Of a DNA stretch of 64,000 bases, positions 24,281 through 57,252 are shown piece by piece. The translations under genes and the position numbers were made by a program. How positions within the stretch are numbered: position 1 is the stretch's first letter; every line of letters begins with the position of its first letter. Origin of the DNA: Hetaerina americana (taxonomy: Eukaryota; Arthropoda; Insecta; Odonata; Calopterygidae); NCBI GenBank assembly GCA_022747635.1, contig JAKTNV010000064.1, positions 124,001 through 188,000 on the forward strand, in the 5' to 3' direction. Under the pieces are notes generated by a model that ran no database searches, was not told the origin of the DNA, and saw only the letters and a program-made list of their open reading frames with translations.

Positions 24281-24470
24281 TTCACCTGGACCTGATACTA
24301 AGATAGGAATCCTGATCTTTTGATGTCTAGCCGATTGATTTATCCAGTTAAGCTACAGGGGCGAATGTTTTTTGACTTTGAAATTTTAGCATCGTAATAC
24401 ACCTAAGCGGATGAGTCAGTTAAAAGTTATTCTCTAATCATCTCTCGCAGTTTTAATAAACGCAGCGATG
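24281..24470 (-). repeat. tRNA-core repeat, copy 1 (left arm plus tRNA-like core)
   Basis: On the minus strand the sequence first shows an arm that is the reverse complement of the spacer seen after each tRNA in the 52.5-54.0 kb array (blocks CATCCGCTTAG, AAAATTTCAAAG, CATTCGC). A tRNA-like core follows, with a perfect A box TAGCTTAACTGG. A trace of the second arm (AATTATTATTTTAC) lies beyond the tRNA 3' end. The core is diverged and not a functional tRNA gene. On the plus strand the arm follows an inverted tRNA, opposite to the array. Confidence 0.65.
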
Positions 24471-24697: not shown

Positions 24698-25323
24698 CTA
24701 CCTTGATCAAAAAGTTCCCGGAATAACCACCGTGTGGCGCTCCCATCGTTCCGATTTGAGTTCTGTTTTTTTTGTTAAATTGGTACATCTGTTGTTGATA
24801 TTCCCTTTAAATCTTAGTGTCATAACTTGACATTTGCAAAAGTTACGTAGCCAAGAGTACATCTATCTCTGTGTGTGTTGGCGATTTTTTACAATTTCAG
24901 AAATGGATTTAAATTTGCAACAACGAACTTGTATTAAATTTTGCGTAAAAAACGGATTTAGTGGCGCACGGACGTTGGAAATGTTAGAAAAGTGTTTCGG
25001 CAACGATTCTCTAAAAAAAACGGTCGTTTACCAGTGGCACGAGCGGTTCAGAAGTGGTCGTGAGTCAATCGAAGATGATGAACGCAGTGGCAGACCATCG
25101 ACATCGAAAGTCGGTGAAAAAATTGATAAAGTAAAAGAAATGTTGGTCAATAACCGCAAATTAACCATCAGAGAAATAGCGGAGGACTTGAACATTGCCT
25201 ATGGATCCGCCCAAGACATTGTGGTTAATGATTTGGGTTTCCGTCGTGTAGCAGCAAAGTTGGTGCCAAAAGACCTCAATTTCATGCAAAAAAGAGACCG
25301 TGTTGACGTCGCAAAAGACATGA
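24698..25323 (+). mobile_element. mariner copy A, truncated at the 3' side
   Basis: The left terminal inverted repeat starts with CTACCTTGATC and is preceded by the target dinucleotide TA (24696-24697). The first 626 bp match copies C and D almost perfectly. The match stops abruptly at about 25323, inside the transposase gene and before the catalytic domain; no right terminal repeat follows. The break is sharp, not a decay, and is followed by a direct repeat of CATGAATACCACA (at 25319 and again about 20 bp later). Confidence 0.95.
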
Positions 25324-25340
25324 ATACCACAGATCCGTAG
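24903..25340 (+). pseudogene. mariner transposase, N-terminal part only
   Basis: The frame gives about 140 residues of the transposase (helix-turn-helix DNA-binding region, including CIKFCVKN, YQWHERF, GRPSTS and the LTIREIAEDL second HTH) and ends six codons after the break in unrelated sequence at a TAG. All three catalytic Asp residues are missing. The start ATG at 24903 corresponds to the start I use for the intact copies. Such a product could at most bind terminal repeats. Confidence 0.9.
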
Positions 25341-29753: not shown

Positions 29754-29790
29754 GACCTAGGTTTCGTTACGGCAAAACATCTTCAGGTTT
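29754..29790 (-). ncRNA. Hammerhead-ribozyme-like motif 2
   Basis: On the minus strand: CTGAAGA (fits CUGANGA), a weak 3-bp stem II, GAAA, a minimal stem III (ACCTAGGT) and GTC, followed by GTAATAT. The tail after GTC resembles that after GTC in motif 1. It lies 44 bp outside mariner copy B and is not attached to a recognisable Penelope-like gene. Stem II and stem I are poor, so this is probably an inactive relic. Confidence 0.3.
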
Positions 29791-30957
29791 ACTTGATGAT
29801 TGAATGATTTCCACCGTGTTACGCATGAAACTACTACCTTGATCAAAAAGTTCCCGGAATAACCACCGTGTGGCGCTCCCATCGTTCCGATTTGAGTTCT
29901 GTTTTTTTGTTAAATTGGTACATCTGTTGTTGATATTCCCTTTAAATCTTAGTGTCATAACTTGACATTTGCAAAAGTTACGGTCGGTTTTCGGTATGTC
30001 CATCAGTGCTTCCTGCGATTTTTCCATTACTTCCTCTCGGCTGCTAAAACGCGTTCCCCGTAATGGTTTTTTAACTCGATTGAACAGAAAGAAGTCACAG
30101 GGAGCCAAATCAGGTGAATTCGGTGGCTGTTGGATGGTATTTGTTGCATTTTTCGTCAAAAAATTACGAATAATGATAGCACTGTGCGACGGTGCGTTAT
30201 CATGGTGCAAAATCCACGAGTTTTCTGCCCACATTTCTGGTCTCTTTCGGCGAATTGCTTCACGCAAACGTCTCATAACGCCCAAATAATACTCTTTGTT
30301 TACTGTCTGGCCTTCTGGCAAAAATTCATGATGCACTACACCGTTGTAATCCATGAAAACCGTCAGCATTGCCTTCTTTTTTGACTGAAAACGACGTGGT
30401 TTTTTTGGTCTCGGCTCATTTGGTGAACGCCATTCACTTGCCTGATGTCTGGATTGCGTGTCGTACTCATAAACCCACGTCTCGTCTCCAGTAATGATCC
30501 TTTTGATGAATGTGGGATCGGATTCAGCCTCGCAAATCATGTCTTTTGCGACGTCAACACGGTCTCTTTTTTGCATGAAATTGAGGTCTTTTGGCACCAA
30601 CTTTGCTGCTACACGACGGAAACCCAAATCATTAACCACAATGTCTTGGGCGGATCCATAGGCAATGTTCAAGTCCTCCGCTATTTCTCTGATGGTTAAT
30701 TTGCGGTTATTGACCAACATTTCTTTTACTTTATCAATTTTTTCACCGACTTTCGATGTCGATGGTCTGCCACTGCGTTCATCATCTTCGATTGACTCAC
30801 GACCACTTCTGAACCGCTCGTGCCACTGGTAAACGACCGTTTTTTTTAGAGAATCGTTGCCGAAACACTTTTCTAACATTTCCAACGTCCGTGCGCCACT
30901 AAATCCGTTTTTTACGCAAAATTTAATACAAGTTCGTTGTTGCAAATTTAAATCCAT
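29767..30957 (-). pseudogene. mariner transposase with replaced C-terminus
   Basis: From the ATG at 30957 the protein is identical in kind to copies C and D through PKT near residue 314, so both HTH motifs and all three catalytic Asp residues (TGDE, HHDN, PCDF) are intact. After that the frame runs through the inverted 5' segment and out into flanking DNA for about 80 foreign residues, ending at a TAA next to the hammerhead-like motif. The missing tail normally carries KKCFEDWIKRW and the acidic FEGDNIDLDE end. Whether the chimera keeps any activity is unknown; it may still bind ends. Confidence 0.85.
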
Positions 30958-31162
30958 TTCTGAAATTGTAAAAAATCGCCAACACACACAGAGATAGATG
31001 TACTCTTGGCTACGTAACTTTTGCAAATGTCAAGTTATGACACTAAGATTTAAAGGGAATATCAACAACAGATGTACCAATTTAACAAAAAAAACAGAAC
31101 TCAAATCGGAACGATGGGAGCGCCACACGGTGGTTATTCCGGGAACTTTTTGTTCAAGGTAG
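29834..31162 (-). mobile_element. mariner copy B with 5' ends at both termini
   Basis: The element is flanked by TA (29832-29833 and 31163-31164). Its right side (31014-31162) is the normal 5' end of the minus-strand transposase gene. Its left side (29834-29982) should be the 3' end but is a second copy of the same 149-bp 5' segment in inverse orientation. The switch is at about 29982-29984, next to the transposase codons for MDIPKT. The true 3' terminus and the last 33 codons are lost. The right tip carries one change (TGTTCAAGG instead of TGATCAAGG). Confidence 0.95.
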
Positions 31163-38315: not shown

Positions 38316-39265
38316 GAAAGAGGAGGAAGGGAGGGAAGAGGGTAGGCGTTAGGGATAGAGGAAGGGAGGGAAGAGGGTGGGCGGTTAGGGTGGAAGGAGG
38401 GAGGGAAGAGGGTGGGCGTTAGGACGGGAGGGAGGGAAAATGGTGGGCGTTATGGAGGGAGGAAGGGAGGGAGGGAGAGAAGGATAGGGTGGGCCTTAGG
38501 GGGGGAGGGAGGGAAGAGGTGGGCGGTTGGGTTGGAGAGAGGCAAGAGAATGGGCGTTTGGGAATGTGGGAGGGAAGAGTGTGGGCGTTTGGGAGAAAGG
38601 GAGGGAAGAGGGTGGGCGTTTGGAAGGGAGGGAGGGAATAGGGTGGGCGTTACGGAGGGAGGGAAGGAAGAGGGTGGGCAATAGAGTGGGAGGGAGGGAA
38701 GATGGTGGGTGATAGGGTGGGAGGGAATGAAGAGGGTTGGCGGAAGGGTGGGAGGGAAGGAAGATTGTGGGCGTTTGGGAGGGAGGGTGGGAAGAAAGTG
38801 GGCGTGGGGAAGGGAGGAAGGCAATAGGGTGGGCGTTAGGGAGGGAGGTAGGGGTGGAAGAGGGTGGGCGTTAGGGAAGGAGGGAGGGAGGAAGGGAGGT
38901 TAGAGGATGGGACTTATTGGGGGAGAGATGGAGGGAGGAGGGAAGAGGGTGGGCGTTAGGGAGGGAAGAAGATAGTGTGGGAAGAGGGTAAGCGTTAGGG
39001 TGGGAGGGAGGGAAGAGGGTGGGCTTTAGGGTGGGATGGAGGCAAGAGGGTGGGCGTTTGGGAGGGAGGGAGGGAAGAGGGTGGGCGTGGGGAAGGGAGG
39101 GAGGGAATAGGGTGGGCGTTAGGGAGGGAGGTAGGGAGGGAAGAGGGTGGCGTTAGGGAGGGAAGAGTGTGGGCATTATGGGGGAGGAAGTGGGACGGTA
39201 GTGAGGGTATGTGGTTGGGAGGGAGGAGGGCAGGGAGGGAGAAAGGGAGGGGAGTAGAGGGGAAA
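38316..39265 (+). repeat. G-rich minisatellite, about 30-40 bp period
   Basis: About 950 bp of imperfect tandem units built on GGGAGGGAAGAGGGTGGGCG plus TTAGG or TTTGG. The plus strand is almost purely G/A/T; C occurs mainly at GGGCG. Unit length varies because GGGA blocks are gained and lost. The long frames in both directions (R/G-rich, or P/S-rich on the minus strand) are low-complexity artefacts. Runs of four or more G-triplets make quadruplex folding likely. Confidence 0.95.
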
Positions 39266-41904: not shown

Positions 41905-43236
41905 CTACCTTGATCAAAAAGTTCCCGGAATAACCACCGTGTGGCGCTCCCATCGTTCCGATTTGAGTTCTGTTTTTTTTGTTAAATTGGTACATCTGTT
42001 GTTGATATTCCCTTTAAATCTTAGTGTCATAACTTGACATTTGCAAAAGTTACGTAGCCAAGAGTACATCTATCTCTGTGTGTGTTGGCGATTTTTTACA
42101 ATTTCAGAAATGGATTTAAATTTGCAACAACGAACTTGTATTAAATTTTGCGTAAAAAACGGATTTAGTGGCGCACGGACGTTGGAAATGTTAGAAAAGT
42201 GTTTCGGCAACGATTCTCTAAAAAAAACGGTCGTTTACCAGTGGCACGAGCGGTTCAGAAGTGGTCGTGAGTCAATCGAAGATGATGAACGCAGTGGCAG
42301 ACCATCGACATCGAAAGTCGGTGAAAAAATTGATAAAGTAAAAGAAATGTTGGTCAATAACCGCAAATTAACCATCAGAGAAATAGCGGAGGACTTGAAC
42401 ATTGCCTATGGATCCGCCCAAGACATTGTGGTTAATGATTTGGGTTTCCGTCGTGTAGCAGCAAAGTTGGTGCCAAAAGACCTCAATTTCATGCAAAAAA
42501 GAGACCGTGTTGACGTCGCAAAAGACATGATTTGCGAGGCTGAATCCGATCCCACATTCATCAAAAGGATCATTACTGGAGACGAGACGTGGGTTTATGA
42601 GTACGACACGCAATCCAGACATCAGGCAAGTGAATGGCGTTCACCAAATGAGCCGAGACCAAAAAAACCACGTCGTTTTCAGTCAAAAAAGAAGGCAATG
42701 CTGACGGTTTTCATGGATTACAACGGTGTAGTGCATCATGAATTTTTGCCAGAAGGCCAGACAGTAAACAAAGAGTATTATTTGGGCGTTATGAGACGTT
42801 TGCGTGAAGCAATTCGCCGAAAGAGACCAGAAATGTGGGCAGAAAACTCGTGGATTTTGCACCATGATAACGCACCGTCGCACAGTGCTATCATTATTCG
42901 TAATTTTTTGACGAAAAATGCAACAAATACCATCCAACAGCCACCGAATTCACCTGATTTGGCTCCCTGTGACTTCTTTCTGTTCAATCGAGTTAAAAAA
43001 CCATTACGGGGAACGCGTTTTAGCAGCCGAGAGGAAGTAATGGAAAAATCGCAGGAAGCACTGATGGACATACCGAAAACCGAATATAAAAAATGTTTCG
43101 AGGATTGGATCAAGCGCTGGCATAAGTGTGTTGCAGTCGATGGGGATTACTTTGAAGGGGACAATATAGATTTAGATGAATAAACTTGCATTTTTAATTT
43201 TCTGAATAAATTCCGGGAACTCTTTGATCAAGGTAG
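41905..43236 (+). mobile_element. mariner copy C, complete
   Basis: The ends CTACCTTGATCAAA (left) and the matching right end with one mismatch form terminal inverted repeats of about 27 bp. TA flanks both sides (41903-41904 and 43237-43238). Length 1,332 bp, normal for mariner. Complete transposase gene inside. Confidence 0.97.
42110..43183 (+). CDS. mariner transposase, full length
   Basis: The predicted 357-residue protein cuts out and reinserts the element at TA sites. I start it at ATG 42110; the frame is open 69 bp further up but without an ATG. Two N-terminal helix-turn-helix motifs (about residues 1-110, including YQWHERF and LTIREIAEDLN) bind the terminal repeats. GRPSTS and LVPKDLNF stand where the family has its linker motifs. 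The DDE-type catalytic domain has Asp158 (TGDETW), Asp253 (HHDNAPSH) and Asp288 (SPDLAPCDFF), with exactly 34 residues between the last two, the mariner D,D34D signature. The acidic C-terminus FEGDNIDLDE closes it. No stop, frameshift or missing key residue is seen, so it may be active. Expression would be nuclear-directed eukaryotic mRNA from a weak internal promoter. Confidence 0.95.
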   Translation: MDLNLQQRTCIKFCVKNGFSGARTLEMLEKCFGNDSLKKTVVYQWHERFRSGRESIEDDERSGRPSTSKVGEKIDKVKEMLVNNRKLTIREIAEDLNIAYGSAQDIVVNDLGFRRVAAKLVPKDLNFMQKRDRVDVAKDMICEAESDPTFIKRIITGDETWVYEYDTQSRHQASEWRSPNEPRPKKPRRFQSKKKAMLTVFMDYNGVVHHEFLPEGQTVNKEYYLGVMRRLREAIRRKRPEMWAENSWILHHDNAPSHSAIIIRNFLTKNATNTIQQPPNSPDLAPCDFFLFNRVKKPLRGTRFSSREEVMEKSQEALMDIPKTEYKKCFEDWIKRWHKCVAVDGDYFEGDNIDLDE

Positions 43237-43261: not shown

Positions 43262-43425
43262 ACAGATTCCAAGAAACTGCGGATTATGCCGCAGTAGTAA
43301 CATTAAACGGAGTCATCCGCTACATGTTTTGAACTCGGACATCGAGGGATCCAGATTCAAATCCTGATCAAGGTGAATGATTTTGACACTCTGAAATTGT
43401 TGCATTGAGACATTTACCTGTTTGT
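43262..43425 (+). repeat. tRNA-core repeat, copy 2 (both arms present)
   Basis: Left arm 43262-43325 (GAAACTGCGG, GCCGCAGTAGTAAC, AACGGAGTCATCCGCTA) is the reverse complement of the spacer following the tRNA in the 52.5-54 kb array. Next come about 45 bp of the tRNA 3' half (ATCGAGGGATCC, GATTCAAATCC, AAGGTGAATGA). Then the right arm (ACTCTGAAATTGTTGCATTGA) repeats the array spacer in direct orientation. The 5' half of the tRNA is deleted. It starts 25 bp after mariner copy C. Confidence 0.75.
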
Positions 43426-43429
43426 TTCT

Positions 43430-46400
43430 TTAAAAAATTATTATATTTATTGAAGGTAAATATTACAGCAAGGGTAATACTAAATTCCACCTGGCTTTTG
43501 ACAGCGTCTCGCCACATGCAAATTCAGCCAACCAAATTTGTACACAATGAAGATCTTGTGATTTAACACTGATATGCTTTTAGCTTGTCCGTACAACAGT
43601 GGATTACATATGTACATTCACCAGGTTTTTTAAAAATTTAAAGGAACTTTAAAAATAATAAAGTCTAGTAACAAGTACTTTTGTAGAAAGTACAATAAAA
43701 ACCTTCATAAATACCCATGCGGTTTATTGCATAATGAAATGATGCACATATTATAAGACATTGCCCTTTTATGGGCTTCGTGGCATTCCAAGCTGTAAAT
43801 AAATAGTAATTATTACTTTTTATAGATTTACAATATATTTTTACAACAAGAAAAATTTATTATATCAAGCAATACATGGTAATGATATAGCAAAATATAT
43901 GAGAAAAACATATTAAGGAGCAAATATGATGGCAAGAAGTTATTTTCCAAAAGTCTCAAAGAAGTGCAAAGACTCGTTAAAAATGCCGGGAAAACATTTT
44001 GGTGGCTAGAGTTCAGGATACTGCAACTACCATTTTTAGTTGACGGTTTAAAACAATTGCTTAGCACTGATGAAAAACAAATGCAGAGGATTCCTACATT
44101 CCTCATAGTCAATGATATTGAGTAAATAACAATAAGTGCTTCAATTTAAAATAACATAAGCACCATAGTTTATGACATTTCACTCAAGATAACCTATTAC
44201 ATGTCATACAAGTAAATGAACTTAATTTTGCATATTTAGTCATAAACTGCCAGGGGTAAACAACTAGGGTGGAATATTAAATTACTTTTAATGCATATTA
44301 ACAACTTTTAATGATTACTAATTATATCTAGAATTTTTCATACTACAGCATGGTAAATATGAAAACTATTGCAACGCATACATATTTGTTTAAGGTCATT
44401 AAATTCAAGACAATAAGAAGGAAAGCATCTAATTCTCATGAGCTACAAAATTTACAAATTTGTATGCTAATATAAAGAAAGTATTTAATCGTAAAGTGAT
44501 CCCTGAACTTCTACAAAGATTATGCCATCGAGCAAACCCAGTGAGCCCAAAAGCACACTGAGCAAAATGTTGGGACCCACCGAACATCAAATAATTTGCA
44601 ACCCTGGCCATGGGAATGCCAAATCTCAAATTTAATTTTAAAACTTAATAAATCCTAATTCTAAAATATTCATAGGCTCATGAGCTACCCCATAATTTAG
44701 AAAGACAGGCAAATGAAATAGCATGATGAACCAAATATTAAGAAAAGAAAAAAGAAAAAGAAAAGAACTCAAACATACTCTAAAATGTGTATCTCATCTG
44801 ACTGGAGTGATGGATATTTTAAACCTATAACGTAATACACGGGTTCACTGTTAATCTCATGACGGGTATTACGCAATTCGTACTTTTCCAATTAACACAT
44901 AGAACTAGAGGTTCAATGAACGTTCAATTATGAGACTTCATCTTATTAGCATATTCCAATTCAACGCTTGGTATTATTCAAATTGGAGTGCATGCATAAC
45001 CACGATAGCCACGGGACTCATTTGAAAGAATGAGAGAAAGCACATGAGAGGACTACGTACGGAAAACTGCTGGAGTTTTTTATATTTCCGTAGGCCATGC
45101 TCAACTCTGGACATTTATTTTATGTAAACTTGTGTTAGGCGTAGCCACTTGAATTATTCTCGCATTTTAAATATCTATTCTAATCAAGGAGATAGAGCAT
45201 TTTAGGATCTTATACAATTCTCGCGATATCTTGGTGAGAGTACATGTTTAGTATGCTTATGTAATATTATCTGTCAAGCAGTGTATATGTATACAATATT
45301 TATGTCCATCTGGTAAGTGTATGCTATGCTATCTGACAGATTGGTACTCCTACAAAAGCGTCAGCTAGCTGTGGACTCTCAATGCGAAGCGGAACTAATT
45401 TTTCTAGTGTATCGCAGTTCTGAGAAAGTTTATTTCTGCGCGTCAGCATGCCCACATCTCACCGTCAACTCAGCCACGAAAAATGAGAAATAACACCGCA
45501 CGAAATCGCCCGGCCGAATTGAAAACTGCGGTCTTGGAATCAGCCCACGAGCAACCAGTACCACCAGCCAACTGCATCGACAGACGAATGTTAACTACTA
45601 CCTCTCATTTCAGATGCTGAAGCAACGCAATACGATGAGAGTTCATAGAGGAGATGTACTTTGATAGTTCTGTAAAATACTTCGTTTTCAATCAATGGAG
45701 CAATGATATGCGACAATACGGCAATGCGACATCAATGGCGCAAAATTTTTGATGCGGCTAGAGAGAACGTTATATCTCAGACTTTCGCTTTCCCTCTACA
45801 TAATAGATTAATATTAAGTGATAATTGATTACCAATAGACATTTCGATAAAACAGCATAAGGCCAAACGATACCATTTATATGATGCTATAATCATAATC
45901 CATATCACGAAATATGACTGCTATCGAAGTAAATATACATATGAGATCTACCCACCGGAAAAATATCTCCACAGTTTTTTTTCTTTACATCACGGCGTGC
46001 AGAAAATTAAATAAATGTCCATATTTCCATTTCTTTAGTTGCCAAAGGAATTTTGAATATTTCGCCTGGCTCTTTTCCTTTTTACTTCGGATATGCTCTT
46101 TTGCCTACGGACTCTTTTATTGCAATCACCAGCTAATTATTTTACTTTTAAGCATGGAAATATCCATTTATCCGGATGCACTGTTAAATGCAAGAGTTTG
46201 TCATTTAAAGTTTTCCAATTTTTAAAAAAAGTTACTTTTTAAAGATAAGTGGAATTATTTATTTTTTAAATTTATTAACTGTTCAACAAAATGCTATTTT
46301 TAAAACCCGGAGAACTAAGGGCATCGTGAAAATGGCAAAGATTCATTTTCGATGGCTTGATTTTGAGTAAAAATGTGTAAATTTTTCAAATTTGAATCGT

Positions 46401-47154
46401 GTAATGTAACTCATTTTTTTTATTGTTCGGAATTACAGTTCATCATTTCTCGCTCCAAAAATATGACACTCGGCTTCAGGACCTCAAATCAACAAAACAA
46501 TTTCCAAAAACGTTTTGAATTTAGTTTTTCTAGAACGAATAGAATACTTCTTACGCAAAACTACTACAAAACTACTACAACAGCACAACTTTAGGGGTCA
46601 TCGGAACGCACAAACCCTTCCATGACGTCAAGGTTGAAGGTAATATAAAACTTTCAAATTCGCACGCCGTGCGATGCAGAGAGTAGCAATTTCTGGACCA
46701 TTTGACACAATCAGCTTACTCCCTACGAACGAGGTACAAGGACTCGCAAAATGACTCGGAGTTTTGAGAAATGGAACCCATGCTTTTCATGGTAACCGCA
46801 GGCGGCATTGTGGAAGGACGAGAATCGGATGGGAAATTCACCATAATTCCTGCAATCCCCCATCAAAACAACTTTCGAGAAATATATTGTTGCATCATAT
46901 TTTGTCAGATTATTAATCGTTTATGAAAGCCGATGCAAAGAGATTGCCTTTGAACATTAAATTTAGTTTATTGTTTCTGCTCTAGGAGTGACTCAAAAAA
47001 GGACTGATATGTGATATCTCATTAAAATCTTTAAAAAGAAAATGTTGGGTTAGAAATATAGGAGGGTAGGCTGAAAAATAATTGACGCTCGTATGATGTC
47101 TGATATTTCCCATGTTGCCGAACATTGCTGGGTTCTGTCCTCCGATGTCGAGCC
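43430..47154. other. Intergenic; nothing recognised
   Basis: AT-rich. A slightly GC-richer stretch near 45420-45600 is open in no long frame. A 103-codon plus frame (45914-46225) is rich in Phe, Tyr and Leu and resembles chance translation of T-rich DNA. Confidence 0.4.
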
Positions 47155-47330
47155 CTCTTCTCAGAACTGATAGCAATCAATCAATACGGCGATCTAGCGC
47201 CACAACATTCATGGGACTTATACTAAATGATAGTTTAAACTGCAATTTTCACATACTGGATATGAACAATGAAATGGCATCAGGACACTTCGTGATTTGC
47301 AAACTTGTTTCAAATGCAAGGGCTGACCAG
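47155..47330 (+). pseudogene. Possible LINE RT C-terminal fragment
   Basis: Within a 125-codon frame, the stretch TTFMGLILNDSLNCNFHI with following NNEMASGHFVICKL fits the family pattern FLGLxLDxxLxWxxHI...KLxxxxFxxRxL found after the RT palm of CR1/Jockey-like elements. The rest of the frame is unrelated. Too short to assign a clade. Confidence 0.4.
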
Positions 47331-47559
47331 ATAAATAGCTTAGGTTTCGACCTACGGTGGCGGAGGGTAAGGGGGCTAGAGCGACCATCTTGGTGTCTAA
47401 ACGTCCTTTCACTCAGTCATGAATCCTGCTCTGATATTATGTGCAGACTGAAATTCTTTTACTTAGCTTTAAAATCTGTGCTGCAATAGAAAATCCCGCG
47501 ATTAGTAAAGTTCGATCTGTAATTAGGTTTTTACTGGAAAAAAAACCACAAGATATTCA

Positions 47560-47800
47560 TTGGCGACTTTGTGAATTGTGTACGGAGATAGAATAGTAAT
47601 GAGTGAAGACGGGTTGAGGCAGTGGTACATTCAGTTCAAAAATGGCCACAGCAACAATGGTGACGACAAGGACCGTAGTGGTCTCGTGATAGTAGAACGG
47701 ACACTGAAAATAAACGAAAAACATCGTGAAAATCTCGGATTAACAACTATGAATCCTTCCCTTGACGTGGCTTGCAACGCAGCAGCGCTTTGACGGTGAC
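47560..47800 (+). pseudogene. mariner-type HTH remnant
   Basis: The translation HWRLCE, then VYGDRIVMSEDGLRQWYIQFKNG and DDKDRSG resembles the first HTH of the mariner/SETMAR-type transposase (vYGdxxls.xxvxxWyxrFrxGrxxxxDexRsGRP). The catalytic part is absent, and one in-frame stop lies between the first two blocks. It is not from the A-D family. No terminal repeats were seen. Confidence 0.5.
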
Positions 47801-49965
47801 GCAGAATTGCATGCTGGCGGGTAATTAAGTGGTTAAAATAGTAAGGTGGTGGCAGATTTCTTCGGAGACGATATTGAAAAGCTTTTGAACCGTTGTGATA
47901 AATGCCTCAATTTGAATGGCGACTTTGTTACTGCTTAAGATGTCCTAAAACTAGTATGTTATGCCATAATATATTCTTCTCTCTTCTGTAGTGGTAAGCC
48001 TACCGTTAAAAGGTTCCAACTGAACTAAAGAAAATACCATCAAGTAAGTGGGACTACAGTGTGGATGAGTTAATGAGTGATAACTTGTTATTATTAGCTC
48101 TGTCTGATCTAACGGTGTGTTTTTTAGTGTTTCAGTGTATTATTCTAAATTTCCTATTGGTTCCATTGCTATATTTCATTAAAGTGTCTATTTTAATTCA
48201 TTGCTCTAATTTTATCTTCTGTATATCTGTGTCATGACTATGTTCCATGCCTCATGGATTCCCGACGGAACAATTGAATAAAAATATAAATAATAATGTC
48301 TCCCATTACCCCACTATTCCTTGAGATATTTACACCTCATTGTGGAGTTTGGACTGAAATCAGATTAAATAATGTAGTTCAGAGTGATTTTATTCGCTGT
48401 GTGTAGTTTATTGGTCCATTTGCATGCAATTTTCGTCACAAAACTGATATAATTTGGCTCTTTCTGTAACCATCCTTCATTCATTGTCGAAGCCACCGTC
48501 TACGAATTTTTCCGTCGTTGTTCAATCCTTTAGTAATAAACCAGTGAGAAACTTTTCACTCCCTGGGCAATGAAGCTAACTGTTGCCATTTTTTTCGCAT
48601 ATTTCAGCCGTCTTATTCTAGAGTGCAAAAAGATAATTTCTCCTAGAAGTCCATCGACATTTACCAGTGGGATGGATGCCATTGCACATCGGTTGGTATA
48701 ATCTAACTAACATTTTCTTACCAGCGTTTCTAATTAACCCTGATTGGAAACCGTAAATTTCTGAAGCCTTACTACCCTTAAATAAGTCAATAATTTCCAT
48801 TACCGCTCTTAGTATAGGTCCCTCGCTATCTTTTCAATAATGCTTTCCATTCTCCAGTTGTATTTTGTTCCATTTTCCTTCCATACATCCGGAGCTACGA
48901 ACCGCAAACTCAAAGAGCTCATTTCGTTGCTATAGATAACTCCGAAGCGGAGCAAAACAATCGAAATTGACCCATGGATCACTCAGGCGTATTTTGAATT
49001 CAAGGGCCAGAAACAAAAAGTTACAGTGGTTGATTAAATATATTTATTTGATAAATAAGTATTCTAAAAATATTATTATTAAGCTGAAAGCCTTTAATTC
49101 CTCCAGTTAAAGAGTCCTAAGTATAATAATTTCCAAGATTACATGCAAAGAGACTATCCGCATATTTGTCTTCCCTATAGTGTCATTAAAAATTAACTCG
49201 CCAAGGAAAATTATAGTCAAGGTATCCTATTACCATCTCCTACAAGAGTATAGAAGTATGACAGTTGGTAATTAACGTCTTCGTACCCCCAATTAAGCTT
49301 TAAGAAGTCTACAACGCTCAAATTTAGCATAAATATATCACTAAACGAAACAGGGTTAAATGGGTTCATCTAAATGCTATTGGAAACCAAAACAATCAAA
49401 GAAAGTTAGAATAATGTTTGGATTATCGACGGTTTTTCACAAAGTGGGTGATTCTGTGAAATTTCCTTAGACGTCACTTACTAGATGGGCAATTATGAGT
49501 CATAATTTGAAGGTATGGAATCCGACAAGGGCGGAAGCATTTACGGTTGGCTGTAGCAAGGAGCGAAGGAGACTGTTTGCTATGCCTATGGATTAAACAG
49601 CAGCCTGATATATTATGATTAAATATTTGTCGAGCACACAAGACCGGTGATTGCTGGTCTAACAAACAGTGAACTGCATCTTGAACGAGGGATTTTAAAA
49701 AATCTCTCCAAACTGTGTGTCTTATCGCGTTAGTTGCAACCGCTGAATCTACGAGGAACTTAAAGACGAGAGAGCAAGCATATGGATGGCGAAGAAACAT
49801 GTCCTGTGGGGGGGAGGAGAGAGGAAATGAAGGCGATAGCCCTAAGATGTACTATGAATGGCGTGGAAATGAATGGGAACGGTGATGCCCTTTGGATAAT
49901 CTCATTAAACGGTCGCGCAATTCAATACCCGCGTTGATGAAGCTCGAGGTATTACTAGATAAGAA
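47801..49965. other. Intergenic; nothing recognised
   Basis: AT-rich; a 108-codon minus frame at 49474-49800 is unrecognised. Polyadenylation-like AATAAA strings are frequent and uninformative. Confidence 0.4.
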
Positions 49966-49967
49966 TT

Positions 49968-50190
49968 AAGGTTCCTAATCCAGAAAGGTTCTAAAACCGG
50001 AAGTGCGCGCGGCGGCCGTCTTGGAAAAGCCACGGCGCTGCCACCTGTATTGAGTTTGAAAACAAAAGCGCAACGAAATAGTAGATGTAGAAAAAGGTTC
50101 GTAACCCAGCAAGGTTCTAAAACCAGAAAGCCGTTTCTTTGAACAATATGGAGGCGTTATTTAAGTGTAAACAAAAACGTAACGACAGAG
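49968..50190 (+). repeat. Diverged tandem duplication, about 115-bp unit
   Basis: Two successive segments both begin AAGGTTC-TAA-CCAG-AAGGTTCTAAAACC and both contain a later AAACAAAA-CG-AACGA block. The second lies about 115 bp after the first, with a faint third start near 50195. Lies just beyond the 3' end of the minus-strand gene pair. Confidence 0.6.
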
Positions 50191-50651
50191 GCGTTAGCGT
50201 TGAAGTGGGAATTCAAATTTAAAACAAAAGAACATCTGGGGCGTGACGGGATTCGTGTGGCGTTTTAATAAAATTGTTGGGGGGTCGGGGAGATAGGGTC
50301 TTTGGGTTGGGATATGAGAGGCATTGGGACGGGAAGTCACTGTCGCGACGCGAAATAAAACTCGTGGTCAAATATTAAATTGAAAAATCGTTATTTTATT
50401 GTTTTTAACAAAAAGCACGTCATTTCGAGGCATCAGGTGAAACTCAATGCGTGAAGACAAATTCAATTTATTTAAAATCATTCAGTAACCTCGCCAAATA
50501 CATGGATAAATTTCCATACATAAATACATATGGTCAAATGGATTGTTAATTTTCCAATCCATTCATTTAAGTCACTCATCATCTTCAGCAATATAGTCAA
50601 ATACATATGTCACAATATTATCAAAGAGATAGTTAAATTTCCAATTACTTC

Positions 50652-51034
50652 ATTAAAAGTCTCTTATTCTCATCCCAAATATTAAATTCGGTATCCGGTG
50701 GGACCGTTGTAACAACGTACTCATCTTTTAATGGTAATGAGAGACGACACCTACGACACTAGTTAGTAGACCTCCATTTCAAAGGTGGATAATCAGCGCT
50801 CATATCACAGACTTGCGCATGATGGAGGTCACCGTTAGATTTAATTAGCTGATGAGCATAAACAATGGCTAGAAAGGCTACATTCAAAAATGAAAAGCAA
50901 GGCTTACATAGATTTGCAAATCTCACTCCCTCAAGGTCAGGGTACACTCTCCGTAGATTTCTCCGTAACAAATTAGCATCAACACGATAAGGCGTATATT
51001 TTACGCACGAATACAATGGCTCAGATGAATTCAT
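50652..51034 (-). pseudogene. Unrecognised Cys-rich protein gene 2, with one in-frame stop
   Basis: The likely start is ATG 51034 (MNSSEPLYSCVKYT). About 90 residues are open until TAG at 50759-50761; the same frame then continues for about 36 more codons (CRRC...VVTTVPPDTEF...) to a TAA near 50652. It is paralogous to the next gene up: both have LY.CV.Y near the N-terminus, CF..LNV near residue 50, a C..C near the stop, and an acidic end. The CxxC lies just after the TAG, which argues that the frame was once continuous. Cys spacing suggests zinc binding. An AATAAA signal on this strand lies at 50395-50400. I do not recognise the family. Position next to a viral-type polymerase relic suggests it belonged to the same element, but this is inference. 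Confidence 0.5.
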
Positions 51035-51120
51035 GGTGTTACAAATCTTCTGAGACCGACACTTGTCAACCCACACAAACACTTACTTCTCGGACGAGGT
51101 GGAGTCGCAATCAACTGAAT

Positions 51121-51485
51121 TCACGGAACCGATGGTAAGTTGTCGCTAGTAATTTCTTCATCAGTCATGTCACAGTCGGGAAGTACTGTTATCTCAGCAA
51201 ACTTTACCCTGCTCGGGATTGATTTTCACACCTCTGACAGTCGAGTGCATGTTGAACATCGAAGTGTGGTTCCTTCTTACACAGTTCGCACTCGATGTAA
51301 GGACGAAGTCTATTATTACGATGTAATTCGTCTATATGAACCAGAGATATATATGGAACATTCAATTTACGGAAGCAGTTACGGTACACACAAACGAGTC
51401 GAGAAGTAACTATTCGTATGAATCGACCATGAACGTTAAATAAATTATATCTTACGCATGCATAAAGTGTTGCTTCTGAAGCCAT
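51121..51485 (-). pseudogene. Unrecognised Cys-rich protein gene 1, with a C-terminal frameshift
   Basis: From ATG 51485 the frame runs 93 residues: MASEATLYACVRYN, then CFRKLNVPYISLVH, ELHRNNRL, CELCKKEPHF and DCQRCEN, then a stop at 51204. In another frame the next about 24 codons read a plausible acidic tail (PDCDMTDEEITSDN) ending at TGA 51121-51123, so one frameshift is likely. Pairs CELC and CQRC look like a zinc site. It aligns over its whole length with gene 2, 87 bp downstream on the same strand, so the pair arose by tandem duplication. A GTAAGT string lies between them. Function unknown; the start region faces a TATA promoter that reads the other way. Confidence 0.5.
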
Positions 51486-51906
51486 TCCGCGATAACTTAA
51501 AAATGCGCTCGTGTGAGGTTGAGTGTCGAAAGTCCCGCTTATTCATGTCAAGTGATATCAATAATAATTATCTCTTACTTCGGCCATTGGAACGAGGATG
51601 GATGGAACCTAATTTCAATTAACTCTTACTCCCGACGTTGAGAGATTATTATTATATTCGGATGTGGGACCTGCATTGTTAAAATTTTAGTTAACTCAGA
51701 CATCCAACGCTGGAATGATAACCTAGCGAATTTCAATTACTATGCGGCTGCGGGAACTTGTGTGGTAGATAAATCATTAGTCAACTTGAATTAACGTAGG
51801 AAGGATTAAACAGATAATTATTTTTCGTTGGAATTTTAATTATATCCCAGGATGTTGCCTTTCAGAAATAACTGTGAGGAAGCAATTGGGTAACCATTGA
51901 ATGGCT
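51486..51906. other. Divergent intergenic region
   Basis: It separates the minus-strand Cys-rich gene pair from the plus-strand TATA promoter. AT-rich with several GAATTNAAC-like and ATTAACT strings but no clear repeat. Confidence 0.3.
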
Positions 51907-51916
51907 TATATAAATA
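51907..51916 (+). promoter_or_regulatory. TATA-box promoter
   Basis: TATATAAATA followed by GGAGC is a strong RNA polymerase II TATA context. About 25-35 bp downstream starts a purine-rich leader (AGAGACGAGGAG, then several AGAGACC/GACAGACC copies) that ends at GAGAGTAAGT near 52055, a good splice donor. Such a compact promoter, leader and donor is typical of viral or retroelement transcription units. No start site is proven. Confidence 0.55.
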
Positions 51917-52155
51917 GGAGCAATAAGGGGCATAAGTTGACATTATTGAAAAAGCAGAGACGAGGAGTCAACAAGAAGCCAGAGAAGAGCTTAAGAGACC
52001 GACAGACCTAGACGAGAGCAACTGCTTGAGAGACGTACAGAGACCTAGATAAGAGAGTAAGTATATTCCCTTTCAAATTAGAAATATGCATTTATCATAA
52101 CTGATTGAAATTGGGACTTGAGTATTTATTTATTTTTCTCTATATTATTTGATGG

Positions 52156-52305
52156 ATGGATTCCGTGAAAGAAATTTTGATGCATTTGCAGAGGGAAGAG
52201 GAGTTTTTGAAGAAGGAAGATTTGGTGGAGGGTGTTGAATACCCGGTTGAAAAACTAGAAACAGTCACAACAAGATATGAGGAAACATGCAACTGTAATG
52301 TATGA
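52156..52305 (+). CDS. Small protein, 49 residues, unrecognised
   Basis: ATG 52156 gives MDSVKEILMHLQREEEF, then a charged stretch, then VEGVEYPVEKLETVTTRY, ending at TGA 52303-52305. The start is charged and amphipathic and the second half is beta-like. I have the impression that Y.V.KLE.V.TRYG-type strings occur in small proteins near arthropod viral-type PolB genes, but I cannot verify it. The frame ends shortly after TRY, where such proteins would continue, so it may be truncated. It lies 240 bp after the TATA box, and another ATG four bases earlier opens only a short frame. Confidence 0.35.
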   Translation: MDSVKEILMHLQREEEFLKKEDLVEGVEYPVEKLETVTTRYEETCNCNV

Positions 52306-52546
52306 GGGCATGCAAAGGAAGATATATTTTGCAAAAAAAATTGCCTCATAAGAATAAAAAAGTTTTATACTTACCTCGATGTATTATATCAAAGAACCCC
52401 ATCCATTAAAGTCCTTATATCCACAACGGAAGCGCCCCTTCCTCAAAACATCAACCGTACGAATCCCTCTCGGACGAGCGGAAGCGTCACTTCCCTCTCA
52501 GAGTAGGAGAACTCTCTCGTGATAACACCACAAGTCTCCAAGGCTG
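52306..52546. other. Spacer between small ORF and repeat array
   Basis: No gene. Two related strings, CGGAAGCGCC and CGGAAGCGTC, occur about 70 bp apart, each near a CCCTC/CCCTT. Confidence 0.3.
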
Positions 52547-52804
52547 TATTTTTACGCTCTGAAATTGTTGCATTGAAATGCACATTAGCGGATGACTCCG
52601 TTAAAAGTTACTGTTGCGGCATCTCCCGCAGTTTCTTTGGAATTTGTCAAAGGGAAAACACCATACGTGTTTAAAGTTGGCTTTAACCTCGTGGACAGTG
52701 GCGCCTCGCGCACGACTACGAATACATGTGACATTGTATGTACGGTATTTCGTCATAACATCTAGTTCCTTTAAAAGCCCCAAAATTTCAGAGTTTAAGA
52801 GGAC

Positions 52805-52877
52805 GCCTCGGTAGCTTAAGTGGCTAAAGCACTCGACCGGATATTGAGGGATCTGGGTTCGAGTCCCAGTCAAGGCG
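52805..52877 (+). tRNA. tRNA-like sequence, array copy 1 (GGA at anticodon position)
   Basis: 73 nt fold as a cloverleaf: acceptor GCCTCGG with TCAAGGC (one C-A mismatch, one G-U), D stem GCTT/AAGC, anticodon stem CTCGA/TTGAG, T stem CTGGG/CCCAG with loop TTCGAGT. A box TAGCTTAAGTGG and B box GGTTCGAGTCC are intact. The anticodon loop is CCGGATA, so position 33 is C, not U, and the variable loop has only 4 nt, which does not suit the serine identity that GGA would imply. It is best seen as a tRNA-derived repeat head, possibly with a working pol III promoter, not a decoding tRNA. Confidence 0.6.
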
Positions 52878-53139
52878 AATGATTTTTACGCTCTGAAATT
52901 GTTGCATTGAAATGCACATTAGCGGATGACTCCGTTAAAAGTTACTGTTGCGGCATCTCCCGCAGTTTCTTTGGAATTTGTCAAAGGGAAAACACCATAC
53001 GTGTTTAAAGTTGGCTTTAACCTCGTGGACAGTGGCGCCTCGCGCACGACTACGAATACATGTGACATTGTATGTACGGTATTTCGTCATAACATCTAGT
53101 TCCTTTAAAAGCCCCAAAATTTTCAGAGTTTAAGAGGAC

Positions 53140-53212
53140 GCCTCGGTAGCTTAAGTGGCTAAAGCACTCGACCGGATATTGAGGGATCTGGGTTCGAGTC
53201 CCAGTCAAGGCG
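53140..53212 (+). tRNA. tRNA-like sequence, array copy 2
   Basis: Identical by eye to array copy 1, including C33 and the acceptor mismatch. Lies in the unit that has one extra T. Confidence 0.6.
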
Positions 53213-53473
53213 AATGATTTTTACGCTCTGAAATTGTTGCATTGAAATGCACATTAGCGGATGACTCCGTTAAAAGTTACTGTTGCGGCATCTCCCGCAG
53301 TTTCTTTGGAATTTGTCAAAGGGAAAACACCATACGTGTTTAAAGTTGGCTTTAACCTCGTGGACAGTGGCGCCTCGCGCACGACTACGAATACATGTGA
53401 CATTGTATGTACGGTATTTCGTCATAACATCTAGTTCCTTTAAAAGCCCCAAAATTTCAGAGTTTAAGAGGAC

Positions 53474-53546
53474 GCCTCGGTAGCTTAAGTGGCTAAAGCA
53501 CTCGACCGGATATTGAGGGATCTGGGTTCGAGTCCCAGTCAAGGCG
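53474..53546 (+). tRNA. tRNA-like sequence, array copy 3
   Basis: Identical by eye to array copy 1. Confidence 0.6.
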
Positions 53547-53807
53547 AATGATTTTTACGCTCTGAAATTGTTGCATTGAAATGCACATTAGCGGATGACT
53601 CCGTTAAAAGTTACTGTTGCGGCATCTCCCGCAGTTTCTTTGGAATTTGTCAAAGGGAAAACACCATACGTGTTTAAAGTTGGCTTTAACCTCGTGGACA
53701 GTGGCGCCTCGCGCACGACTACGAATACATGTGACATTGTATGTACGGTATTTCGTCATAACATCTAGTTCCTTTAAAAGCCCCAAAATTTCAGAGTTTA
53801 AGAGGAC

Positions 53808-53880
53808 GCCTCGGTAGCTTAAGTGGCTAAAGCACTCGACCGGATATTGAGGGATCTGGGTTCGAGTCCCAGTCAAGGCG
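53808..53880 (+). tRNA. tRNA-like sequence, array copy 4
   Basis: Identical by eye to array copy 1. Last tRNA before the partial fifth unit and the polymerase relic. Confidence 0.6.
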
Positions 53881-54031
53881 AATGATTTTTACGCTCTGAA
53901 ATTGTTGCATTGAAATGCACATTAGCGGATGACTCCGTTAAAAGTTACTGTTGCGGCATCTCCCGCAGTTTCTTTGAAATGATTCTTATTTAAAATTTTA
54001 AAATTTTTTACATAAAATCAGAATTCCTTAA

Positions 54032-55883
54032 GTGGCATATGCGGACTTTGAATTTGTTCTACTAAAAGTTTCCAGCTGTTTTTCTCAGGATGATCATTCA
54101 CATACCCAAAAGCGCCAGCAACATGAAGTTATGTCCTTTTGTCTGCTTATGGTTTCAAGCATTGGTGAATTTTTTGAGCCTATTCTCTATAGGGGGAAAA
54201 ACGCCGTTGAAGTATTTCTCGAAAAGCTAAAAGAAATGTCACGTTTTGTGCAAGGAGTGTACAAAAACAGTAAACCCATAATGAAAATGAGTGAGGCGGA
54301 AATTACTGCTTTTGAAAAAGCTATTAGTTGTCATATTTGCCGACATATACTGGGTGAAGATAAGGTGAGAGATCATTGTCACTTGTCAGGTAAGTTCAGG
54401 GGGGCTGCTCACTATGCGTGCAATGTAAACTTTAAAAATCCAAAATTTTGACCAGTGTTCATCCATAATCTCTCTAATTATGACGCACACCTCATTGCAC
54501 TGCTTCTAGGATGTGATTCTATGAAAATTACATGTATCCCAAATACTGAGGAAAAGTATATTTCTTTCTCGAAAAACGTTGATTCTAATTTCTCCTATCG
54601 GTTCCTTGACAGCTATAGATTTTTGAGCACGTCACTATCTAGATTAGTCGATGTTCTTCCTAATGATAAATTCAAGCAAACAGCCCAAATTTATAAAGAA
54701 AAAACAGATAGAATCACGCGAAAGGGTGTATTTCCATACGAGTATGTAGATTCATGGGAGAAATTGAACGAGAGCTACCTTCCATCAAAAGAATGCTTTT
54801 ATTGCACTCTAACAGAGGGTACAATTACCGGCGATTATTATCGTTCGCTAAAATTGTGTGGTAAGAATTTGAGTGCAAGACGTTGGGTGACTATTCAGAC
54901 TTGTATTTGAAAACAGTTGTACTGATACTTACTGATGTATTTGAAAATTTTAGAAACATTTGCCTGTCGATGTATCAACTTTATCCCGCCTGGTATTTCA
55001 TTCTTCCAGGACTATCTTTTGACGGCATGCTTAAATAAACAGGGGTCACACTAAAGCTGTTAACGGACTATGATATGATTCTAATGATGGAAAAAGGAAT
55101 ACGGGGAGCTATCAGTCAGTGCACAAAGCGTTACGCTGAGGCAAACAATAGGTACATGGAAGATTTTAATCAATCACATGAGTCAACATTTATTGCTTAT
55201 GTCGATTTTAATAATTTATATGCATCAGGGTTATCCGCCCCCCTTCTCATGGATGGTTTTCGATGGGTTGACCCCCTGGACGTCACCATAATCAATCACG
55301 ATTCTCCCAAGGCATATCTTTTGGAAGTGGATCTAGAATATCCTTAAGAACTCCACGATTTTCTTTCCGACCTACCGTTTTGTGCAGAAAAGAAATTACC
55401 ACCGAATGGTCGGAAACCTAAATTATTAACTACACTGTACGACAAAGAACGATACGTCATACATTAGAGATCTTTAAAACAGGCATTAGCAGCAGGGCTT
55501 AAATTGAAAAAGATACACAGGGAAATCGAATTTTATCAATCCCCTTGGATGAAGCCATATATTGACATTAATTCAAAGAAACGGAGACTTAAAACGACTG
55601 AGTTTGATCGGGACCCATTCAAACTATTTAACAATAGTGTCTTTGGTTAAACATTGCAGAATGTACGGAATTATAAAGATTTAGAATTGATAAATAGTGA
55701 AAAACGATTAGATAAATTAATCTGCAGTTCATTATTTCTCGATAGGAATATTTTTGCAGAAAATCGAGTGGCTGTTCATTTTAGATAAAGCAATATAAAA
55801 ATGAATAAACCTCTGTGCATAGGACAGGCCGTTCTCTATATTTCCAAAGTGCTTATGTATGACTTTTTTATAATCATATTTAA
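54032..55883 (+). pseudogene. Protein-primed type DNA polymerase B relic (Polinton/adintovirus/bidnavirus-like)
   Basis: The translation follows the organellar/viral PolB family in order. AYADFE near 54035 is the start of the exonuclease region. CHICRHIL...RDHCHLSGKFRGAAH and ACN near 54340-54420 form the zinc-binding HNH/endonuclease-VII-like insert. Then HNLSNYDAHL near 54460; AYVDFNNLYASGL near 55195 is polymerase motif A; KLFNNSVFG near 55625 is motif B. Motif C (DTDS) is absent: the frame decays near KVLMYDF at 55860, and mariner copy D begins 34 bp later. Breaks: TGA at 54449, a frameshift near 54880, TAA near 55036 and 55345, and three more stops beyond 55460. The gene would replicate a linear viral-type genome. 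The flanking Cys-rich pair and TATA promoter may be from the same element. Genuine source group cannot be fixed from this fragment. Confidence 0.9.
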
Positions 55884-55917
55884 GTAAACTATTATAGTGA
55901 TGCAACATTGTTATATA

Positions 55918-57248
55918 CTACCTTGATCAAAAAGTTCCCGGAATAACCACCGTGTGGCGCTCCCATCGTTCCGATTTGAGTTCTGTTTTTTTGTTAAATT
56001 GGTACATCTGTTGTTGATATTCTCTTTAAATCTTAGTGTCATAACTTGACATTTGCAAAAGTTACGTAGCCAAGAGTACATCTATCTCTGTGTGTGTTGG
56101 CGATTTTTTACAATTTCAGAAATGGATTTAAATTTGCAACAACGAACTTGTATTAAATTTTGCGTAAAAAACGGATTTAGTGGCGCACGGACGTTGGAAA
56201 TGTTGGAAAAGTGTTTCGGCAACGATTCTCTAAAAAAAACGGTCGTTTACCAGTGGCACGAGCGGTTCAGAAGTGGTCGTGAGTCAATCGAAGATGATGA
56301 ACGCAGTGGCAGACCATCGACATCGAAAGTCGGTGAAAAAATTGATAAAGTAAAAGAAATGTTGGTCAATAACCGCAAATTAACCATCAGAGAAATAGCG
56401 GAGGACTTGAACATTGCCTATGGATCCGCCCAAGACATTGTGGTTAATGATTTGGGTTTCCGTCGTGTAGCAGCAAAGTTGGTGCCGAAAGACCTCAATT
56501 TCATGCAAAAAAGAGACCGTGTTGACGTCGCAAAAGACATGATTTGCGAGGCTGAATCCGATCCCACGCTCATCAAAAGGATCATTACTGGAGACGAGAC
56601 GTGGGTTTATGAGTTCGACACGCAATCCAGACATCAAGCAAGTGAATGGCGTTCACCAAATGAGCCGAGACCAAAAAAACCACGTCGTTTTCAGTCAAAA
56701 AAGAAGGCAATGCTGACGGTTTTCATGGATTACAACGGTGTAGTGCATCATGAATTTTTGCCAGAAGGCCAGACAGTAAACAAAGAGTATTATTTGGGCG
56801 TTATGAGACGTTTGCGTGAAGCAATTCGCCGAAAGAGACCAGAAATGTGGGCAGAAAACTCGTGGATTTTGCACCATGATAACGCACCGTCGCACAGTGC
56901 TATCATTATTCGTAATTTTTTGACGAAAAATGCAACAAATACCATCCAACAGCCACCGAATTCACCTGATTTGGCTCCCTGTGACTTCTTTCTGTTCAAT
57001 CGAGTTAAAAAACCATTACGGGGAACGCGTTTTAGCAGCCGAGAGGAAGTAATGGAAAAATCGCAGGAAGCACTGATGGACATACCGAAAACCGAATATA
57101 AAAAATGTTTCGAGGATTGGATCAAGCGCTGGCATAAGTGTGTTGCAGTCGATGGGGATTACTTTGAAGGGGACAATATAGATTTAGATGAATAAACTTG
57201 TATTTTTAATTTTCTGAATAAATTCCGGGAAATTTTTGATCAAGGTAG
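55918..57248 (+). mobile_element. mariner copy D, complete
   Basis: Both terminal repeats and both TA flanks (55916-55917, 57249-57250) are present; 1,331 bp. It differs from copy C at a handful of sites, mainly silent. Its right terminal repeat has AAATTTTTGATCAAGG where C has AACTCTTTGATCAAGG. Confidence 0.97.
56122..57195 (+). CDS. mariner transposase, full length (second copy)
   Basis: A 357-residue transposase like that at 42110-43183, with the same two HTH motifs and the full D,D34D set (TGDETW, HHDNAPSH, SPDLAPCDFF). I see two amino-acid changes relative to copy C: Phe to Leu in the segment PT[F/L]IKR just before the first Asp, and Tyr to Phe in YE[Y/F]DTQ just after it. Both are conservative. 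Several other differences are silent. No stop or frameshift. With copy C it is a candidate source of transposase for A and B, whose own products are incomplete. Confidence 0.95.
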   Translation: MDLNLQQRTCIKFCVKNGFSGARTLEMLEKCFGNDSLKKTVVYQWHERFRSGRESIEDDERSGRPSTSKVGEKIDKVKEMLVNNRKLTIREIAEDLNIAYGSAQDIVVNDLGFRRVAAKLVPKDLNFMQKRDRVDVAKDMICEAESDPTLIKRIITGDETWVYEFDTQSRHQASEWRSPNEPRPKKPRRFQSKKKAMLTVFMDYNGVVHHEFLPEGQTVNKEYYLGVMRRLREAIRRKRPEMWAENSWILHHDNAPSHSAIIIRNFLTKNATNTIQQPPNSPDLAPCDFFLFNRVKKPLRGTRFSSREEVMEKSQEALMDIPKTEYKKCFEDWIKRWHKCVAVDGDYFEGDNIDLDE

Positions 57249-57252
57249 TATG

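Follow-up and report, generated by a model that had tools for sequence, protein, structure and literature searches.

We analysed a window of 64,000 nucleotides from the odonate insect Hetaerina americana (assembly GCA_022747635.1, contig JAKTNV010000064.1; C1182:124001-188000 in our numbering of this 1.63-Gb genome). A sequence-only reading of the window had described an island, starting at 50395, that resembled a relic of a small DNA virus and comprised a pair of Cys-rich genes (CysA and CysB), a compact TATA/leader/donor unit with a small frame, and a fragment of a family-B DNA polymerase (PolB). All of these parts are present, and the odd Cys genes, the small gene and PolB belong together in one element. 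The broken element spans about 49641 to 55917 and so starts earlier than first thought. We are highly confident of its identity and anatomy: it is the left arm, now decayed, of a single integrated Polinton/Maverick.

This conclusion was reached by comparing the island with other copies in the same genome. Window positions 50389-52548 aligned at 77-79% DNA identity with three near-intact copies on contigs C1, C804 and C971 (loci L015, L017 and L018). The PolB of these copies is about 90-92% identical to that of the window, and their Cys pair, TATA/leader unit and small frame (hereafter orf95, for the 95-aa gene of which the window keeps the front) stand in matching order and orientation. On C1137, an independent relic is likewise co-linear with the window. 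A genome-wide search with a 152-aa PolB piece of the window yielded 150 scored matches from 284 candidates, a lower bound, of which 115 fell into three identity bands. A Cys match lay within 20 kb of PolB in 19/19 cases at 80% identity or more, in 15/51 at 56-79% and in 0/45 at 51-55%; for orf95, the corresponding counts were 19/19, 15/51 and 41/45. A random point has a chance of about 0.4% of falling so close (20 kb) to a PolB locus. Among the 19 closest matches are the window itself and the four duplicates whose flanks it shares (see below). The expectation that the neighbours would recur beside other PolB copies was thus borne out for the closest ones, but the Cys genes were found beside only some of the copies at 56-79% and none of those at 51-55%; many copies at 56-79% are without both Cys and orf95. 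These counts by identity band make the Cys pair a set of accessory genes present in some families, with orf95 more widespread.

We considered the possibility that unrelated repeats or pseudogenes had come to lie by chance next to a PolB fragment. A tandem array and a mariner transposon found here are indeed unrelated insertions. Yet the order and strands of the other parts recur in independent copies, and this, together with the complete linkage in the closest band, led us to reject a chance juxtaposition, to which we assign a negligible probability. The earlier proposal that the parts form one integrated element was therefore upheld.

The Cys genes might instead be a host multigene family, picked up by some Polintons or merely adjoining them. 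When the intact CysA frame was used as a genome query, it gave 103 matches, of which 11 were full-length and stop-free at 98-100% identity; the intact orf95 frame gave at least 150 (150 scored of 261 candidates). Among 72 distinct Cys loci, 38 had a PolB match at most 20 kb away, and 44 had PolB or orf95 in this range. The other 28 had neither at this distance, and there is a cluster at C804:76.93-77.02 Mb, as a host family might show. However, a PolB match at C804:76955546 lies some 20-65 kb from this cluster, and broken elements would leave loci of the same appearance. Furthermore, in the copies on C1, C804 and C971 the terminal repeats enclose the Cys genes, and no homologue outside this genome was found in 5.8 billion proteins (no match at E ≤ 0.01). 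We therefore consider a host origin of this sort improbable.

The intact element on C1 measures 16,844 bp. It is bounded by terminal inverted repeats (TIRs) of 573-581 bp, 98.3% identical, and its ends read AGTAGAAGTAAAG. Six-bp target duplications were recognized by eye from the end sequences of all three copies (CCAGTG on C1, TGGGTG on C804 and GCTAGG on C971). When ten frames of the C1 element were compared with Pfam, one matched the rve integrase (E=3.2e-14) and a chromodomain (E=2.9e-8), both above cut-off; the rve integrase was seen in the intact copies L014 and L039. This gene is predicted to encode an rve integrase with a C-terminal chromodomain, a feature by which Adintoviridae are recognized too. 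The ATPase frame gave a weak match to Pox_A32 (E=0.0017, 18.3 bits, below the cut-off of 22.8). A candidate protease matched Peptidase_C48 weakly in its sister-family version (E=0.058), and its C1 version had no match to this family; the Protein Data Bank (PDB) gave no match. By eye, it contains a GxHW and CGxYC motif, as would suit an adenovirus-like cysteine protease.

Likely capsid genes are suggested by position and conservation. Frames of 434 and 322 aa are conserved (67% and 62%), and by position the 322-, 176- and 434-aa frames may be penton-like and hexon-like. These three had no convincing Pfam match, and the profile of the 434-aa frame no significant match to a PDB chain. Hence, of the hallmarks for which fuller copies were to be inspected, TIRs, target duplications and integrase were found, and the capsid is likely only. 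A sister family (C1359 and C804:43.75 Mb) has the main genes in the same order, but its single Cys gene lies outside the gene row, past its far end. Overall, the element has those Polinton features that could be tested.

The PolB of the window (53976..55917, + strand) consists of an Endo VII-like part followed by an exonuclease/polymerase part; its front and end are missing and it contains several frame breaks. Pieces at 54032-55788 matched Endonuclease_7 (E=1.3e-4) and DNA_pol_B_2 (E=6.8e-4), both below the Pfam cut-offs. With a 152-aa piece, 46 of 72 candidates scored at E ≤ 1e-3; the matches included proteins from aphids (Macrosiphum, Sipha) and an ant (Ooceraea) with the UniRef name DNA-directed DNA polymerase. 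Frames of 1183-1184 aa were present in 7/12 copies of this genome at 84-87% identity. By its sequence, the gene is assigned to the Polinton-type family-B DNA polymerases.

The sequence-only reading had left Polintons, adintoviruses and bidnaviruses open as relatives. An integration of a bidnavirus or parvovirus-like agent, sharing only PolB with Polintons, would agree with the resemblance of insect Maverick PolBs to the Bombyx mori densovirus polymerase, as described in passages of PMC5803895. On the other hand, the integrase with chromodomain, the TIRs of about 575 bp and the 6-bp duplications speak against it, and a Pfam scan of 20 frames, a subset of those in two element families, revealed neither a helicase nor a capsid family of parvoviruses. 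The Polinton/Maverick assignment stood, and we deem the bidnavirus option very improbable.

Between PolB and the ATPase, the C1 element has a 510-codon frame with matches to Peptidase_M10 (E=2.5e-32) and Hemopexin (3.4e-12), both above cut-off, and to PG_binding_1. This matrix metalloproteinase (MMP) gene, located at L014:6434-7963(-) and L038:8022-9551(+), is one open frame. The cysteine switch PRCGV is present in both aligned sequences, and the zinc motif HEIGHSLGISH conforms to HExxHxxGxxH; the best PDB match was interstitial collagenase (1su3, E=2.1e-35), and a signal peptide was recognized by eye only. With its zinc motif, cysteine switch and hemopexin domain, the predicted protein is classified as a matrixin (M10A). 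It shares all of these and PG_binding_1 with other matrix metalloproteinases; unlike them, it is encoded inside a Polinton, in a single open frame.

Across the genome, 93 MMP matches corresponded to 78 distinct loci, 59 of which were at most 6 kb from a PolB match and 19 were not. By PolB identity, an MMP was present beside 14/19 copies (at least 80%), 32/35 (67-74%), 8/16 (56-66%) and 1/53 (51-54%), these bands covering 123 of the 150 scored matches; the window's own PolB has no MMP neighbour. The gene adjoins PolB in three PolB families, and zinc motif and cysteine switch were checked in two. The versions of these two are 65% identical, with a dN/dS of 0.075 at a dS saturated at 3; the third, beside 71% PolB copies, is 48-49% identical. 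The presence of an MMP beside PolB in three families suggests a role outside the cell. Baculoviruses carry an MMP. A literature search with partial coverage found, among the titles listed, none that joins Polintons and matrix metalloproteinases.

The TATA/leader/donor unit with its small frame, as originally described, is real, and both the intact copies and the sister family have it too. In the window, the TATA box (TATATAAATAGG) is at 51907..51918 (+), the former leader intron with its GTAAGT donor at 52057..52155 (+; GT at 52057), and the 49-aa front of orf95 at 52156..52305 (+). Compared with the intact 95-aa frame, this front is 67% identical over residues 1-49; homology continues in another frame, with 71% identity to residues 46-62 at 52286-52336. 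In three intact copies, the TATA box is 260-261 bases and GTAAGT 97 bases upstream of an ATG directly preceded by TAG. Two sister-family copies have TATA, GTAAGA and TAG/ATG at similar spacing in different-looking sequence. Among 12 copies, 8 have a TATA match and 10 have GTAAGT/GTAAGA or GTATGT. Two of the copies lacking these signals (C1126, C693) had little upstream sequence taken in, and C80 has a changed TATA. The two bases before the orf95 ATG are AG in 8 copies, GG in 3 (the window, C789 and one on C1248) and TG in 1 (C1137). In the 53% family, an exon-like stretch after TTTGTAG/GATGG was noticed by eye. From this arrangement, a short untranslated leader is probably spliced onto the orf95 ATG, and the window copy, with GG for AG, would have lost the acceptor.

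We also considered that the block might be a replication or packaging signal rather than a spliced promoter unit. Its DNA sequence is strikingly conserved, intron included, in relic family and intact copies alike, as that of such a signal would be. Yet the sister family keeps TATA, GTAAGA and TAG/ATG at similar spacing despite its different sequence, and we regard the signal interpretation as unlikely.

The structure model of orf95 (pLDDT 63.7) contains one helix and six strands. Baculovirus LEF-3 was at the top of the PDB list and made up 4 of the 50 PDB entries and 6 of the 50 BFVD entries among the matches listed, though no match was significant (E 0.27 and 0.072). Also, LEF-3 has about 330-550 aa in the entries seen, versus 95 aa for orf95. 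The model points to a small single-strand-DNA-binding or polymerase-accessory protein as the leading candidate, which we rate at somewhat less than an even chance.

That the two Cys-rich frames on the opposite strand are duplicates was corroborated by a local protein score of 75 between CysA and CysB; the best of 300 shuffles scored 45. In the window, CysB is a 91-aa frame (50759..51034, - strand) ending at an in-frame stop, with homology on to 50663; it is 75% identical over residues 1-136 to the intact frame L015:3323-3730. CysA is a 93-aa frame (51204..51485, - strand) with homology on to 51074 in two other frames; compared with intact L015:2822-3319, identity is 73-76% in the first two of its three pieces and 68% in the third. 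The cysteine pattern was preserved in 10/10 Cys proteins compared. We infer the roles of both the Cys and the 95-aa proteins; for the Cys proteins, the most likely one is that of zinc-binding regulators that act on the host or on transcription of the element, at about even odds. Of note, a Cys-family frame on C58, L044:148-891(-), has its own front part tandemly repeated in one open frame.

The window copy itself cannot work: an array stands in place of the PolB front, the frames are broken, the splice acceptor is lost and the right arm is gone. Every gene frame is affected, CysA and orf95 shifting frame part-way and CysB having its in-frame stop. The left end is a terminal block at the position of the terminal inverted repeat (49641..50395, no strand assigned), which starts AGACCGG and is common to the C1137 copy from L013:36 on, with differing flanks; the window contains no inverted partner of it, so only one end is kept. 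Apart from the Cys, orf95 and PolB pieces, C1-copy frames of at least 80 aa had no further matches in the window, and this comparison placed the integrase, too, among the missing genes. The foreign array (52548..53980, no strand assigned; 334-bp unit, 4.3 near-identical copies) occupies the site of about 1.1 kb of PolB, which is still present in the relics on C789, C715, C80 and C970. At the truncated end is a mariner transposon (55915..57251, + strand; Transposase_1 E=1.4e-17), outside the element like the array, with inverted arms of 30 nt at 55915-55944 and 57222-57251 (97%); its start coincides with the end of PolB homology at 55917. In C80 and C970, a mariner is at another PolB site, near window 55682.

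The host flank is common to these four relics and the window (C1182), and the five look-alike relics thus stem from one insertion. Window 44000-49829 is repeated in C789 and C715 (99.6%) and, piecewise, in C80 and C970 (90-97%), reflecting either segmental duplications or unmerged haplotype contigs. Beside the C789 relic, L042 (C789:124900-130899) contains another row of Polinton-like genes, which is more distant (integrase 44-50%, PolB end 64-65%).

Each full array copy contains a tRNA-Ser(GGA)-like gene, making four such units (ARAGORN and Rfam, 46.2 bits x 4); a true tRNA-Ser has a long variable arm. A further occurrence of the array unit lies close to the C971 copy (L018:1-310, 97-98%), and window 24368-24453 and 43262-43408 contain fragments of it. 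The 64 kb include four mariner transposase frames whose translations are almost identical (24831-25340, 29767-31029(-), 42038-43183 and 56050-57195), two of them of 381 codons; this similarity suggests a recent burst. The window further contains a 429-codon open frame resembling, by eye, a non-LTR (long terminal repeat) reverse transcriptase (22155-23444(-)) and a G-rich 31-bp minisatellite of 26 copies with strong GC skew (38322-39163).

How does the element compare with known ones? According to passages of PMC5803895, insect Mavericks have PolB with Endo VII and a chromodomain integrase, and Sf Maverick 1 and 2 carry five main genes, with a parvovirus VP1-like capsid. Like our element, Sf Maverick 1/2 have a PolB with an Endo VII-like part, an rve integrase with chromodomain and an ATPase, A32-like in theirs and weakly so in ours. 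Unlike it, they are described in these passages with no mention of a Cys pair, orf95 or a metalloproteinase. Vertebrate Mavericks (passages of PMC8097293) have a mean size of 16.9 kb, TIRs, 6-bp target duplications, AGT ends and accessory regions flanking the core genes. The element resembles them in size, TIRs, 6-bp duplications, AGT-starting ends and accessory regions, but its large genes are all on one strand, whereas theirs form two modules on different strands, and its end motif is AGTAGA instead of (AGT)2; the passages mention no metalloproteinase.

Adintoviruses, as defined in passages of PMC11071296, have genomes of 13-15 kb in Drosophila (passages of PMC8363768). Like our element, they have PolB and an integrase with a C-terminal chromodomain. 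Adintoviruses are further characterized by a hexon recognizable by BLASTp and a PolB with an N-terminal OTU-like domain; for L015:1-1677, Pfam gave no match to an OTU family. Some adintovirus zinc-finger genes are described as CTCF-like, whereas Pfam gave nothing of this kind for the Cys family. Giant transposons (passages of PMC6431247) belong to the known context.

These comparisons show how a complete element is built and suggest how it may work. From the left end, intact relatives carry CysB and CysA on one strand and, on the other, TATA-leader-orf95, PolB, MMP, ATPase, small genes, integrase and putative virion genes. The gap between CysA and orf95 would act as a divergent promoter. The integrase would insert the element, and PolB would copy it in protein-primed synthesis starting at the terminal repeats, as established for the family. 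The C1 and C804 copies contain stretches that are 99.93% alike over 9.9 kb, so mobility must be recent. Tentatively, and as a possibility that we would not yet call probable, this recently mobile Polinton clade may represent present or recent working viruses, with a captured MMP that serves for crossing tissue barriers, an early unit with a spliced leader for a small replication-accessory protein, and an orphan family of zinc-binding regulators, the window copy being the fossil of one member.

The interest of this fossil lies in its family. It has long been asked whether animal Polintons are transposons or viruses, and an MMP kept beside PolB suggests an extracellular role. Recent mobility means that the elements may be studied in living insects, and the Cys family and orf95 provide two gene families with which unknown insect genes could be annotated.

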